A stretch of 64,000 nucleotides of DNA. Source: Clostridia bacterium (GTDB taxonomy: Bacteria; Bacillota; Clostridia; Christensenellales; DTU072). The translations under genes and the position numbers were made by a program. Positions 22,521 through 27,772 of the stretch are shown in pieces. The stretch is from contig JAFVRJ010000016.1 in NCBI GenBank assembly GCA_017504305.1, positions 1 to 64,000 of the forward strand. Reading direction: 5' to 3'. Numbering within the stretch: position 1 is the stretch's first letter; each line of letters starts with the position of its first letter. The notes beneath the pieces were generated by a model. It had not been told where the DNA came from. It saw only the letters and a list, made by a program, of their open reading frames with translations, and made no database searches.

Positions 22521-23372
22521 ATGCCTAAACTAAAAATCCATCCTTCTTTTTGGTTATATGCATTAATTATGGTCATAAGTAGCGACTACGTTTACTTCAT
22601 CGCCAGCTTGTTTGCCGTAATGCTACACGAATTTGCACATGCAAAGGTAGCATATAGTTGCGGTTATTACTTAAACCAAATAAATCTAACCCCTTTTGGC
22701 GCGATGTTGCAAGGTGGTGAAAAAATAAAAGATAGCGACGGTATAAAAATAGCCGTTGCAGGGCCGTTATCAAACTTTTGCTGTTGCATATTACTCCTTG
22801 CCATATGGTGGTTGATACCGTCGAGTTACTCCTACACTAAAGTGATTTACAAGGCAAATCTTGTAATCGGAGCGTTTAATCTACTCCCTATTTTCCCTTT
22901 GGACGGAGCAAGAGTTCTTATTGCCGTTGCCAACAAACCTCTTAAACTATTAAAGGCACTTCGCATCGTAGGCATCCTATCGTCGACTATGCTATTCATA
23001 GGCTTTTTAGCATCCTTTTTCGTACAAGTTAATTATTCGCTTGGCATAATGGCAACAATAATCTATTTATCGTCTGTTGGGGGAACTGAAAAGGAAACTT
23101 ATCGCCTTATTGCAAACGCAATACCGTACTCAAAAAGCTTTGATGCTCCAATAAAAAAGAGTACCGTAATGGTACATCTTGATCTTAAGCTGATAAGGTT
23201 ATTACGCCATATAAAGCCTGATACAGACACGATATTCGAGGTGGTTGACGACAATCTTAAAGTTATTACAACTCTAAATGAACAGGCTGTGCGCGAGCTT
23301 GCTTTAAGATACTCGCCACAATCAACCATCAAAGAACTTTTATCTCTTTACTTCGATGATAAACCAAATTAA
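22521..23372 (+). CDS. spoIVFB: SpoIVFB-type intramembrane metalloprotease (site-2 protease)
   Basis: 283 aa. Zinc motif HEFAH (H36, E37, H40) in the first membrane region and the third ligand in NLLPIFPLDG (D128), as in M50B proteases; the C-terminal soluble part (from about 200) resembles the CBS-like region of SpoIVFB. In B. subtilis it cuts pro-SigK in the mother cell. No spoIVFA lies beside it. SD is poor. Located convergent with minD-minE, in keeping with the min-spoIVF order in Bacillus, and its last 44 bases overlap minE on the other strand. Confidence 0.87.
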   Translation: MPKLKIHPSFWLYALIMVISSDYVYFIASLFAVMLHEFAHAKVAYSCGYYLNQINLTPFGAMLQGGEKIKDSDGIKIAVAGPLSNFCCCILLLAIWWLIPSSYSYTKVIYKANLVIGAFNLLPIFPLDGARVLIAVANKPLKLLKALRIVGILSSTMLFIGFLASFFVQVNYSLGIMATIIYLSSVGGTEKETYRLIANAIPYSKSFDAPIKKSTVMVHLDLKLIRLLRHIKPDTDTIFEVVDDNLKVITTLNEQAVRELALRYSPQSTIKELLSLYFDDKPN

Positions 23373-23568
23373 CTTGCATAGTATTCTTTCCTTCAACTTG
23401 CTCAAATAGGATACTTAAATCGGCTTGTTGGTAGTCTAAATAGCTATTTAGTAGCTGGATTAAGTCTTGCCTAAACATTGCTTCGACTTCCTTTCCAATA
23501 CTGCTTTCGCGCGATATTGACTTATTCAAACGCTCGTATGAAATGCTACCTTCGCTCTTTTTACTCAT
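23329..23568 (-). CDS. minE: Cell division topological specificity factor MinE
   Basis: 79 aa, slightly short for MinE. Residues 6-20 (EGSISYERLNKSIS) resemble the MinD-binding/ATPase-activating stretch with the SxxxERL core; residues 31-70 (FRQDLIQLLNSYLDY ... MQVNLVYH) match the topological-specificity domain. MinE drives MinD off the membrane to keep septa at midcell. The start overlaps the minD stop by 4 bases (ATGA), so they are translationally coupled. Divergent enough that an automatic search could miss it. Confidence 0.8.
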   Translation of the reverse strand: MSKKSEGSISYERLNKSISRESSIGKEVEAMFRQDLIQLLNSYLDYQQADLSILFEQVEGKNTMQVNLVYHRSKEIKVL

Positions 23569-24329
23569 CTAAAAAATCTCCCTAAAAATCTGTTTCGAGT
23601 ACAATCGTATACCTGTTCACTGCGCTTTAATATTACGTCCTTTAACATATCGTAAGCTATCGAGGCTTTGTCGTGCATCCTATTGCTAATTGTTGAATAC
23701 ACTCCTATACGATCGCTTTCCGGTATAACTCCGTAAAGTGGCAAGCGAAGTAGCTCTGCAATTGAGCGAGCATCAAGCGTTTCGCCTTTTACCTCAAGAT
23801 CACCTCTTACTCTATTGACGACTAATCCGATTCCTCTTATATCATAGGTGCCAAGCAACGATAACACCCTATCAGCATCTTTTACCGCACTGACGTGGGG
23901 CGTAGTTACTATTATCGCTTCACGCGCACTACAAGCCGTCCGATGAAAGCCAAGCTCTACACCGGCAGGAGCATCAATCAAAACGTAGTCGGCGTATAAT
24001 TGCGCCTCGGTTACTATTGAGGTAAAAGTTCCCGCCTTAACGCGGTCGGAACAATGTGCCTTTGCCGACGGAAGCAGTTTTAACCCTGTACCATCGTTAT
24101 CCTCTACAAGTGCTTGTTTGATTTTGGCACGACCTTCTATTACGTCTATTATGTCGTATACTACTTTGTCCTCAACGCCTAACGCAACGTCTAAATTATT
24201 TAGCCCGATATCACCGTCGATCAACAACGTGCGATAACCTTCTTTAGCCAATTTTAGTCCAAGATTTGCAGTAACCGTCGTCTTCCCTACTCCGCCCTTG
24301 CCTGATGCAATTAGAATTGTTCTTGCCAT
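23565..24329 (-). CDS. minD: Septum-site determining ATPase MinD
   Basis: 254 aa. Deviant Walker A SGKGGVGKTT at residues 8-17, Walker B-like DYVLIDAPAG, DGDIGLNNLD, and a C-terminal amphipathic tail (NRFLGRFFR) that binds membrane. ATP-dependent membrane cycling with MinE positions the division inhibitor. ATG at 24329 is preferred: GAGAGG lies 7 nt upstream. The in-frame ATG at 24347 has no SD. The SD is in the 3' arm of a strong hairpin directly after valS (see 24330-24366). No minC is visible nearby. Confidence 0.95.
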   Translation of the reverse strand: MARTILIASGKGGVGKTTVTANLGLKLAKEGYRTLLIDGDIGLNNLDVALGVEDKVVYDIIDVIEGRAKIKQALVEDNDGTGLKLLPSAKAHCSDRVKAGTFTSIVTEAQLYADYVLIDAPAGVELGFHRTACSAREAIIVTTPHVSAVKDADRVLSLLGTYDIRGIGLVVNRVRGDLEVKGETLDARSIAELLRLPLYGVIPESDRIGVYSTISNRMHDKASIAYDMLKDVILKRSEQVYDCTRNRFLGRFFR

Positions 24330-24366
24330 AAAAAAACCTCTCTTCATATTAGAACGTGAAGAGAGG
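24330..24366 (-). terminator. Terminator hairpin of valS that also holds the minD ribosome site
   Basis: Minus strand: perfect 10-bp stem CCTCTCTTCA/TGAAGAGAGG with a 10-nt loop (24366-24337), then seven T (24336-24330) and immediately the minD ATG. The 3' arm carries the only plausible minD SD, GAGAGG. Confidence 0.85.
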
Positions 24367-24400
24367 CGAATTTTTAGAAATATTTAATTATTATAGGTAA

Positions 24401-27028
24401 TTACATATTTTTGAGTTCTTCAATACGCTCGAGAAGTTTAGCCTTCTTTTCGGTATTTGCTTGGAGCTTAATCTTTTCGTTTTCGATAAGTTGCTTGGGA
24501 GCTTTAGCGACAAAGCCTTGGTTATTAAGCATACCTTCGCTACGCTTGATTTCGCCTTCAGTTGTTTTAAGTTCCTTTTCAAGTCTTTGAAGTTCCTTTT
24601 CAACATCAACGAGTTCGCCAAGAGGAATATAAATTTCAGAGCCGGATGCTACTATAGAAACGCTCTTTTCGGTAACTTCCGATTTATCAGCAATAAACTT
24701 AATGCCTTCAACGTTTGCGAGCTTCATAATGTAACTTACGTTCTTACCAATGTATTGAGCTTCGTTACTTACAACGTAAAGGTTGAGTTTCTTGGAAACT
24801 GGTACGTCCATTTCGGCACGAAGATTACGTACGGAACGGATGATGTCCTTGATACTTTCGAACTTCTCGAAATCGGCCTTATTAGCGTACTTCTTGTTAT
24901 ATGCAGGGTACTCTGCAAGCATAATGGTCGACTCCTCGCCGCACTCTTGCCAAATGCGCTCGGTAATGAAGGGGGTGAAGGGATGCATAAGCTTGAGGAT
25001 TTGCTTAAGAACGTAAGTAAGTACTGCAAGGGTTTCACACTTTTGCTTTTCGTTATCGCTATAAAGAGCAGGCTTGGTCAACTCGATGTACCAATCGCAG
25101 AAGTCACTCCAAATGAAATCGTATAACGCTGCGTTTGCCATACCCATCTCATATTTTTTAAGATAAGTATTAACTTCGCGGGTTACTTTATTTAACTTAA
25201 AGAGAATCCACTTATCAGCAGGTGTGTATCTGAAGCTACCGATTTTTGGTAAATTCTTACCTTCACTATTCATCAATACGAAACGAGATGCATTCCATAG
25301 TTTATTGAGGAAGTTTCTTGCAGGCTCGATCTTATCTTCACTAAACCTAATATCGGAGCCGGGAGCAACACCTGTAGTCAAGCTGAAGCGCAATGCATCG
25401 GCGCCGTATTTGTCGATAAGCTCCAACGGATCGATACCGTTGCCAAGGGACTTACTCATCTTTCTGCCCTTAGCATCTCTAACGATACCGTGGATTAAAA
25501 CTTCGGGGAAGGGAATTTCGCCCATATGCTCTAAACCGCTGAATATCATACGAGCTACCCAGAAGAAGATAATGTCGTATGCGGTTACCAAAACGTTGGT
25601 GGGATAGAAGTACTTGAGGTCTGCGGTGTTATCCGGGAATCCTAAAGTGGAGAAAGGCCATAGAGCGGAGCTGAACCAAGTATCAAGAACGTCCTCGTCT
25701 TGGTGGATGTCTTTACAACCGCACTTGGGGCAACAAGTAGGATCTTCTTTTTCTACTATAACTTCGCCACACTCGGGGCAGTACCATGCAGGTATACGAT
25801 GTCCCCACCATAGTTGACGGGAAATACACCAATCCTTAATGTTCTCCATCCAATTGAAATAGGTCTTTGAAAATCTTTCGGGGATGAAGTTAATCTTCTT
25901 ATCTTTAACAACCTTTAATGCCGGGGCTGCAAGGCTATCCATCTTAACGAACCATTGCTTGGAAACGATGGGTTCTACAACGCTCTTGCAACGATAGCAC
26001 TCGCCAACGTTGTGGGTGTAAGGCTCGATCTTTTCCATCAAACCAAGAGCCTCTAAATCAGCAACGATCTTCTTGCGAGCTTCGTCCCTATCAAGTCCTA
26101 CGTATGCAAAGCCGTTTTCGTTAATTACGCCTGCGTCGTCCATAATACGGATAACCTCGAGGTTATGACGTAAACCTACTTCGAAGTCATTGGGATCGTG
26201 TGCAGGAGTGATTTTTACGCAACCGGTACCGAAGTCTAACTCTACGTAATCATCGGCAACAATCGGTATAAGTCTATCGGTAAAAGGAAGCTTGAGCATC
26301 TTACCAATCTTATCGGTATAACGAGGATCTTTGGGGTTAACTGCAACTGCGGTATCGCCAAGTAAAGTTTCGGGACGGGTGGTTGCAATAATAAGATATC
26401 CCGATCCATCGGCGTACGGATAGCGGATATGCCATAAGAAACCGGCTTTCTCATCGTACTCAACTTCTGCATCACTTAAAGCGGTTTCGCAATGAGGACA
26501 CCAGTTGATGATACGGCTACCTTGATATATTAGTCCTTTGCGGTATAAGTTTACAAAGACCTCTCTAACTGCTTTAGAGCAACGCTCGTCCATTGTAAAG
26601 GCCTCGCGCGACCAATCGCAAGAGCTACCAAGTCTACGAAGTTGCTTTACGATTTTACCGCCGTAGGTTGCCTTCCACTCGTATGCACGCTTTAAGAATT
26701 CTTCACGACCGATAGTCTCTTTATCAAGACCTTCTTCGCGGAGTTTATCAACGATTTTAACTTCGGTAGCGATACTTGCGTGGTCGGTACCGGGAAGCCA
26801 TAACGTAGAGTAACCTTGCATGCGCTTATGTCTGATGATGATATCTTGCAAGGTATTGTTAAGAGCGTGGCCCATATGAAGTTGGCCGGTTATGTTGGGT
26901 GGCGGAATTACTATAGAAAAGGGAGTTTTATTCTCGTCTACTTCAGGACGGAAATATCCGCTCTTTTCCCATTGCTCGTATATGCTGTTTTCAAAACTTT
27001 GCGGTTCAAAATTTTTAGGGAGTTCCAT
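24401..27028 (-). CDS. valS: Valyl-tRNA synthetase
   Basis: 875 aa, usual length. Class I signatures: [15 protein letters not shown] (HIGH) near residue 45 and KMSKSLGNG (KMSKS) near 520; CP1 editing domain between; anticodon-binding domain; C-terminal coiled-coil arm from about 800 ([17 protein letters not shown]). Zinc-binding CPECG and CCPKCGC around 410. SD AGAGG before ATG, 9 nt after the pgsA stop. No T-box leader, as the gene is driven from the pgsA promoter. Confidence 0.97.
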
Positions 27029-27037
27029 GTTTACCTC

Positions 27038-27712
27038 TTATTTGGTTTCGGGTTCAATAACTTCAACTTGTACTTCTTCTACTGCCTCGGTGGGTTCAAC
27101 GTAAGTGCCTTCTTTGATAGCTTTTTTCTTTGCAAGGATACCTTTGATGATACCGATTGCTTGCTTAAGATAATTGAAGAAAGCTATATAAGTTAGCACT
27201 AAACCAACTCCGAGAACGATCCAATCGACATAGGCTTTGTCTACCCAATAAGGATGGAAGAAGCTTAATACGATTGCAATACAAATTACCAATGAAGCAA
27301 TCTTGCCCATATAGTTTGCTTTGATATTTTTAGCGTCGCCTGCCATAAAGAAACCGCCGATAATCATAACGACTTCTTTTAAGATTAGTATGACGATAAA
27401 CGCCCAATGAACGTAACCGATGATAACCAAAGAAAGTACTGCCGAACATTGCATAAGTTTATCTGCAAAAGGATCGGCTATTTCGCCAAGTTGCGAGCCT
27501 TGATTAAAGCGTCTTGCAATCCAACCGTCGAAAAGATCGGATACCGCTGCAACAACCAAAATAATTAAGCCGATCAACGGGAATACGTAATTACCTAAAG
27601 GTAGGTAAGTCATAGGATCGATGGTACACCACATAATAAACGGAACCGCGATAATACGGAACAACGTAATCATATTGGGTATAGTCCAAAAATCTTTAAA
27701 TAAAGTTTTCAT
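27038..27712 (-). CDS. pgsA: CDP-diacylglycerol-glycerol-3-phosphate 3-phosphatidyltransferase
   Basis: 224 aa. CDP-alcohol phosphotransferase motif DG(x2)AR(x8)G(x3)D(x3)D is intact (DGWIARRFNQGSQLGEIADP, then FAD). Four to six membrane helices. Makes phosphatidylglycerophosphate, the first step to phosphatidylglycerol and cardiolipin. The C-terminal 25 residues are acidic and Glu/Val-rich, an unusual extension. SD AAGGAG lies 8 nt upstream. First gene of pgsA-valS. Confidence 0.93.
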   Translation of the reverse strand: MKTLFKDFWTIPNMITLFRIIAVPFIMWCTIDPMTYLPLGNYVFPLIGLIILVVAAVSDLFDGWIARRFNQGSQLGEIADPFADKLMQCSAVLSLVIIGYVHWAFIVILILKEVVMIIGGFFMAGDAKNIKANYMGKIASLVICIAIVLSFFHPYWVDKAYVDWIVLGVGLVLTYIAFFNYLKQAIGIIKGILAKKKAIKEGTYVEPTEAVEEVQVEVIEPETK

Positions 27713-27717
27713 AAAAA

Positions 27718-27745
27718 ATACTCCTTGATTAACAATCAGGAGTAT
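27718..27745 (-). promoter_or_regulatory. Hairpin over the pgsA ribosome site
   Basis: ATACTCCTGATT pairs with AATCAAGGAGTAT (one bulged base) on the minus strand, followed by six T and the pgsA ATG. It can act as terminator for read-through from the MreB-like gene and hides the AAGGAG site. The transcript started at the promoter 27744-27772 would lack most of the 5' arm. Confidence 0.65.
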
Positions 27746-27772
27746 TATAACATACTTATATTAATATATCAA
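27744..27772 (-). promoter_or_regulatory. Promoter of pgsA-valS
   Basis: Minus strand TTGATA (27772-27767), 17-nt spacer, TATAAT (27749-27744). Overlaps the 5' arm of the hairpin. Confidence 0.8.

Follow-up and report, generated by a model that had tools for sequence, protein, structure and literature searches.

A conserved hairpin before minD in a Clostridia genus probably combines a terminator, a promoter and a ribosome site

In Tn10/IS10, as Davis, Simons and Kleckner reportedly found in 1985, an RNA structure at the ribosome binding site (RBS) blocks read-through transcripts entering from outside, while RNA from the own promoter escapes. This work of Davis, Simons and Kleckner 1985 (Tn10/IS10, external promoters) and that of Beuzon 1999 on IS200 are both cited by Naville and Gautheret 2010 (PMC2965389), who proposed RBS-sequestering bifunctional terminators with a joint transcriptional and translational block. 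The same paper discusses attenuation, envisages a further transcription start downstream of the palindrome and knows of no experimentally demonstrated RBS-hiding terminator as of 2010 (PMC2965389). In phage T4, RBS hairpins are found together with late promoters in I-TevI, I-TevII, I-TevIII and segB, and also in soc and e (PMC2988022). In the I-TevI type, early and middle transcripts have the RBS buried in the hairpin, whereas the RNA from the late promoter includes too little of the hairpin to prevent its translation (PMC2988022).

The locus described here is situated in a window of 64,000 nucleotides, the whole stretch of DNA analyzed, from a Clostridia bacterium (contig JAFVRJ010000016.1, positions 1 to 64,000). 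On its minus strand, valS (24401-27028; NCBIfam NF004349/TIGR00422 far over the cut-off) ends with a stop codon at 24403-24401 and is followed by minD (23565-24329), identified by TIGR01968 with 235.7 bits against a curated cut-off of 212.9. The minD start codon ATG is at 24329-24327. A second in-frame ATG is present upstream at 24347-24345 (MKRGFF-MARTI...). As its counterpart is out of frame or missing in the relatives inspected by eye, 24329 is likely the true start. Between the two genes lies a hairpin (24337-24366, minus strand; defined by sequence, fold and covariation over 16 genomes) composed of the 5' arm CCTCTCTTCA (24366-24357), the loop CGTTCTAATA (24356-24347) and the 3' arm TGAAGAGAGG (24346-24337). 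The stem possesses 10 perfect base pairs along with one G.U pair. The seven T residues that follow (TTTTTTT, 24330-24336) are both the terminator U-tract and the spacer between the Shine-Dalgarno (SD) sequence and the ATG. Stem-loop, T7 and minD ATG succeed each other on the minus strand without a gap (24366-24327), exactly as the initial annotation had described.

The probable explanation of this layout is a composite insulator that packs a terminator, a promoter and a ribosome site into one 40-bp stretch before minD. Such an element resembles the T4 I-TevI type in that the RBS is hidden in the long upstream RNA while the RNA of the own promoter escapes, the short minD RNA being predicted here. 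It differs in that the T4 genes are phage genes under temporal control whereas minD is a bacterial housekeeping gene, in that the T4 hairpin as described (PMC2988022) does not double as an intrinsic terminator whose U-tract touches the ATG, and in the position of the proposed minD -10 element inside the loop. Tn10/IS10 shares with the element predicted at minD the block of read-through RNA at the RBS and the escape of the own-promoter RNA. There, however, the structure belongs to transposon ends and a transposase gene, while the minD locus has no mobile-element sign and its barrier would double as the terminator of the neighbour. The terminators of Naville and Gautheret likewise hide the RBS in their hairpin, but are discussed in connection with attenuation, whereas the comparative evidence at minD ties the terminator to an internal promoter. 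A search of open-licence papers yielded no relevant account of a promoter lying within a terminator hairpin, and the combination was not found described. The principle is known from T4 I-TevI and Tn10/IS10, while its union with an intrinsic terminator before a housekeeping gene seems to be a new form of it.

The hairpin has the form of an intrinsic (Rho-independent) terminator, with a G+C-containing 10-bp stem, T7 immediately after it and a T-tract kept in the relatives of the genus, which bears out the terminator-like nature that the initial annotation gave it. Folding of the hairpin region with ViennaRNA gave -24 kcal/mol with a z score of -2.36, and 4 of 200 shuffles were equally good. To place the layout within the genome, a scan was made of the 757 ATG genes preceded by an SD in stretches that add up to 94% of the genome, with mechanical gene calls. 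For 6 of the 757 genes, the SD falls in the 3' arm of a stem that is perfect over at least 9 bp, against 1.35±1.06 when the 5' flanks were swapped. A run of at least six T residues between SD and ATG is also rare (9/757).

The minD gene was searched in 98 relatives, represented by assemblies of which several are incomplete. Matches were found in 97, the weakest of them possibly other ParA/MinD-like ATPases. Within the family, 39 of 40 genomes possess minD, four of them by weak matches only (E near 1e-5) which may be other ParA/MinD-like ATPases. The upstream regions of 50 minD loci were compared. All 12 same-genus genomes in which the minD start was covered, the one of the window included, show valS upstream, the SD in the 3' arm of the hairpin and a T-tract (T6-7) reaching the ATG. 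The hairpin also precedes minD in the genera g4 and g9 (four genomes together, giving 16 with the same-genus 12), so the absence from relatives that the initial annotation would have taken as refutation did not occur. It is lacking before minD in the genera g5 and g8, and its presence requires two changes on the protein tree.

The two arms have evolved together. As the MAFFT alignment A1 displaced the 5' arm by one position from one subgroup to another, the arms were compared by a test that needs no alignment. Cognate arms of the 16 genomes gave a pairing score of 431, against 314±17 for arms permuted between genomes, and none of 20,000 permutations was as high. Eight distant representatives behaved similarly (215.5 against 151±14, 0/20,000). 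A single stem column shows C-G, G-C, T-A and A-T pairs among the genomes, and in G020 the pairing is retained with the 5' arm at a distance of 12 nt instead of the 19-21 nt seen elsewhere. Since own arms pair better than exchanged arms and the pair types vary, the paired structure has undergone compensatory evolution, the very changes that the initial annotation had proposed to look for, and the minD hairpin is real and conserved. The inverted repeat could alternatively act as DNA, as an operator around the -10 for a dimeric repressor or activator, with the RNA structure irrelevant. The arms do lie on either side of the -10, an arrangement common among operators, and many relatives have a GACA-type box 22 or 32 nt upstream of it. 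But pairing persists while the inner arm sequence changes freely, and the distance between the arms shrinks to 12 nt in G020 from 20, whereas a protein-binding site should conserve both sequence and spacing; this reading is hardly probable.

Residue conservation in the loop points to a promoter. The proposed -10 element of minD, TAATAT, is situated at 24346-24351 (minus strand) and ends in the T that opens the 3' arm. In columns numbered relative to AGAGG, T(-10), A(-9) and T(-5), which are T1, A2 and T6 of the hexamer, showed zero changes on the tree of the 16 genomes and A(-6), or A5, showed one, while the remaining columns from -20 to -2 showed a mean of 5.0. The hexamers found among these genomes are TATAAT, TAGAAT, TATCAT, TACAAT, TAATAT, TAGTAT and TATCCT, and 11 of the 16 have a G two positions ahead of the hexamer, like extended -10 promoters. 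T(-5) is paired in only 10 of the 16 genomes and unpaired in six, yet invariant, and is therefore not kept for the stem. On this conservation the loop motif is a predicted -10 element.

The same residues bear on a simpler reading, that of a plain valS terminator abutting minD by chance, with the SD in the arm and the loop motif incidental and minD served by modest read-through or a promoter elsewhere. Such a terminator would account for the good form of the hairpin, for T6-7 in the genus and for its being the sole terminator-like hairpin in the 71-nt valS-minD gap, where no further one was found. It does not account for the invariant TA...T of the loop or for a T(-5) kept whatever its pairing. 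Moreover, G020 and G031, both of g9, keep the hairpin without a valS match directly upstream, and G020 already has a further terminator-like hairpin about 70 nt upstream of the minD hairpin. Before a gene located after rsmA, several genomes also retain an SD-hiding hairpin although no T-tract follows it. Taken with these points, chance abutment is unlikely.

The predicted promoter of the composite element was compared with the promoters of the genome. TAATAT, which gives 4/6 matches, is the third commonest -10 behind a perfect TTGACA in this genome, where the canonical spacing is 17 (115 against 9 in shuffles) and a spacing of 22 is not enriched. In the window, no TTGACA is found 16-18 nt upstream of the -10, the -35 being poor and not recognisable there, and no consistent -35 at a spacing of 17-18 was observed across the minD relatives. 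A loose -10 match occurs in a comparable interval before about half of all genes (single-genome background 0.4-0.54), so the promoter claim rests on conservation. The sigma-A single-genome rule found no match for two of the six SD-in-stem cases, the gene after rsmA and spoIVB. With this background and these two missed cases, the single-genome scan for a nested -10 is uninformative, and conservation was used instead. The initial annotation had named a promoter inside the hairpin, antitermination or very weak read-through as routes to MinD. The first is supported by the loop motif TA..AT with its T, A and T invariant in 16 genomes. Weak read-through is not supported as a necessary route.

In g5 relatives without the hairpin, TATAAT or TACAAT is found at nearly equal distance before the SD. 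In five g8 genomes (L044-L048), a TATAAT-like hexamer was seen by eye whose end is 6-7 nt from the minD ATG, on its upstream side, which suggests a leaderless minD mRNA there. As such a motif lies near minD in both genera without the hairpin, a promoter very close to minD may have come first, with the hairpin later built around it.

Boxes of the TTCGACA/GACA type, 22 or 32 nt (one helical turn apart) before the -10, were observed upstream of minD in L002, L004, L005, L008, L009, L020 and L024. They resemble Spo0A boxes with a spoIIG-like 22-bp spacing; none is present in the window. Control of minD by Spo0A was considered, TTCGNCA-like boxes being found upstream in many relatives and Spo0A in most, and is set aside as a lead: the window has no box, G006 and G007 have the box without a Spo0A match, and the boxes are not enriched upstream of genes.

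The Shine-Dalgarno sequence GAGAGG is situated at 24337-24342 (minus strand), and its AGAGG is invariant in the 16 genomes; AGAGGTGA is present in 8 of the 12 same-genus genomes. Its pairing in read-through RNA, asserted by the initial annotation, was recovered by computation: P(unpaired) is 0.00 in that RNA and about 0.3-0.5 in RNA starting at 24347-24341. Pairing of the RBS in RNA from upstream, together with the covariation, places the element with the T4 I-TevI type on this point. Transcription is predicted to start about 6 nt past the -10, at 24341-24339 (minus strand), which would give a leader of 10-12 nt with the SD at its extreme 5' end. RNA from such a start would retain AGGTGA in many relatives (AGAGGTGATTTTTTATG). 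A start near 24340 in the window leaves only GAGG or AGG at the 5' end, and translation of this short minD RNA may therefore be weak here, which would agree with the low MinD level guessed in the initial annotation. A start between the stem and the ATG had been regarded beforehand as refuting the reading of the initial annotation; the start predicted inside the 3' arm comes near to it, and would explain the layout rather than refute it.

A leader-based alternative places the promoter upstream of the stem, where TATAAT at 24391-24386 in the window could start an RNA containing the whole hairpin. The terminator and hidden SD would then form a 5' attenuator, opened by a protein, a metabolite or a ribosome signal. 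In G011 and G002 a TATAAT abuts the 5' arm. However, the TATAAT at 24391 is not conserved, and the 34 nt from the valS stop (24401) to the stem leave little room for a sensor leader or an antiterminator. No Rfam family reached its gathering score in the window, on which ground an attenuator or riboswitch was rejected; the reading is very unlikely, and antitermination, the remaining route of the initial annotation, finds no support in the Rfam search or in the 34-nt distance. A terminator in a short gap before an ATG does not by itself imply attenuation.

Under the composite insulator, polymerase arriving from pgsA-valS would meet the hairpin and T7 and mostly stop, the hairpin acting as the valS terminator, as its form and conservation suggest. 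Any read-through RNA would hold both arms, with the SD computed as paired, and presumably yield no MinD. The own promoter of minD, with the conserved -10 TAATAT (24351-24346) in the loop, would start RNA in the 3' arm near 24340. As the 5' arm is left upstream of this transcript, the SD would be freed and the short-leader mRNA (10-12 nt) translated. With its own promoter inside a hairpin that terminates and hides the SD, minD would depend for expression on that promoter and be independent of valS transcription. Such insulation agrees with the conserved pattern no less well than does the fixing of a low MinD level suggested at first. If true, one short element gives a chromosomal cell-division gene two levels of insulation, termination and translational silencing of the escapees, with its own promoter intact. 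It is a concrete, conserved and easily tested candidate for the RBS-hiding terminator, of which none was demonstrated as of 2010 (PMC2965389), and, if right, a simple compact part for expression design.

Similar nested elements were found at other genes of the genome. The pgsA element (27717-27746, minus strand; from sequence and genome scan) consists of AATACTCCT and AGGAGTATT followed by T residues and the ATG at 27712, and its promoter TTGATA-17-TATAAT has a -10 (27749-27744, minus strand) overlapping the 5' arm. This layout is shared by G002 and G004 while other genus members are without it, G008 and G003 having a separate terminator-like hairpin before pgsA instead. The gene after rsmA (L135, 9174-10028, plus strand; upstream loci L178-L190), rsmA being named by eye from its C-terminal sequence without a model, shows the SD in the 3' arm and TANNNT in the loop region in 12/12 sequences of the genus. 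Its arms covary (0/20,000). Upstream of spoIVB (Peptidase S55; L082, 1052-2080, minus strand; loci L191-L201), GAATA...CAAAATA, a sigma-G-like motif, is conserved in 11 genomes, and five of these place the -10 inside the loop of an SD-hiding hairpin, with a 14-bp stem in this genome. The genus as a whole conserves the promoter motif both before spoIVB and before the gene after rsmA. The promoter TTGACA-17-TATCAT of an Exo_endo_phos gene also has its -10 in a hairpin, an arrangement not clearly kept in relatives, and the genome scan gave a sixth gene with its SD in a long stem (L146, 10217-10843). As a tentative suggestion, short of likely, nested terminator, promoter and ribosome-site hairpins may be a recurrent device of the genus, separately evolved at several housekeeping and sporulation genes (minD, pgsA, the gene after rsmA and spoIVB), which frees the expression of packed neighbours, with different sigma factors giving the -10.

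Among the neighbouring features, no MinC match was found in the genus at the threshold searched. A 79-aa ORF (23329-23568, minus strand) overlaps the minD stop at the usual place of minE; its Pfam MinE match (E 0.097) is below the cut-off, and MinE scored about 20.5 bits at the same position in G003 and G012. The A-rich stretch ahead of the 5' arm is conserved in relatives. On the plus strand the hairpin is terminator-like too (24337-24376, tail CGAATTTTTA), and may there be a stop for antisense RNA from the convergent M50 gene.
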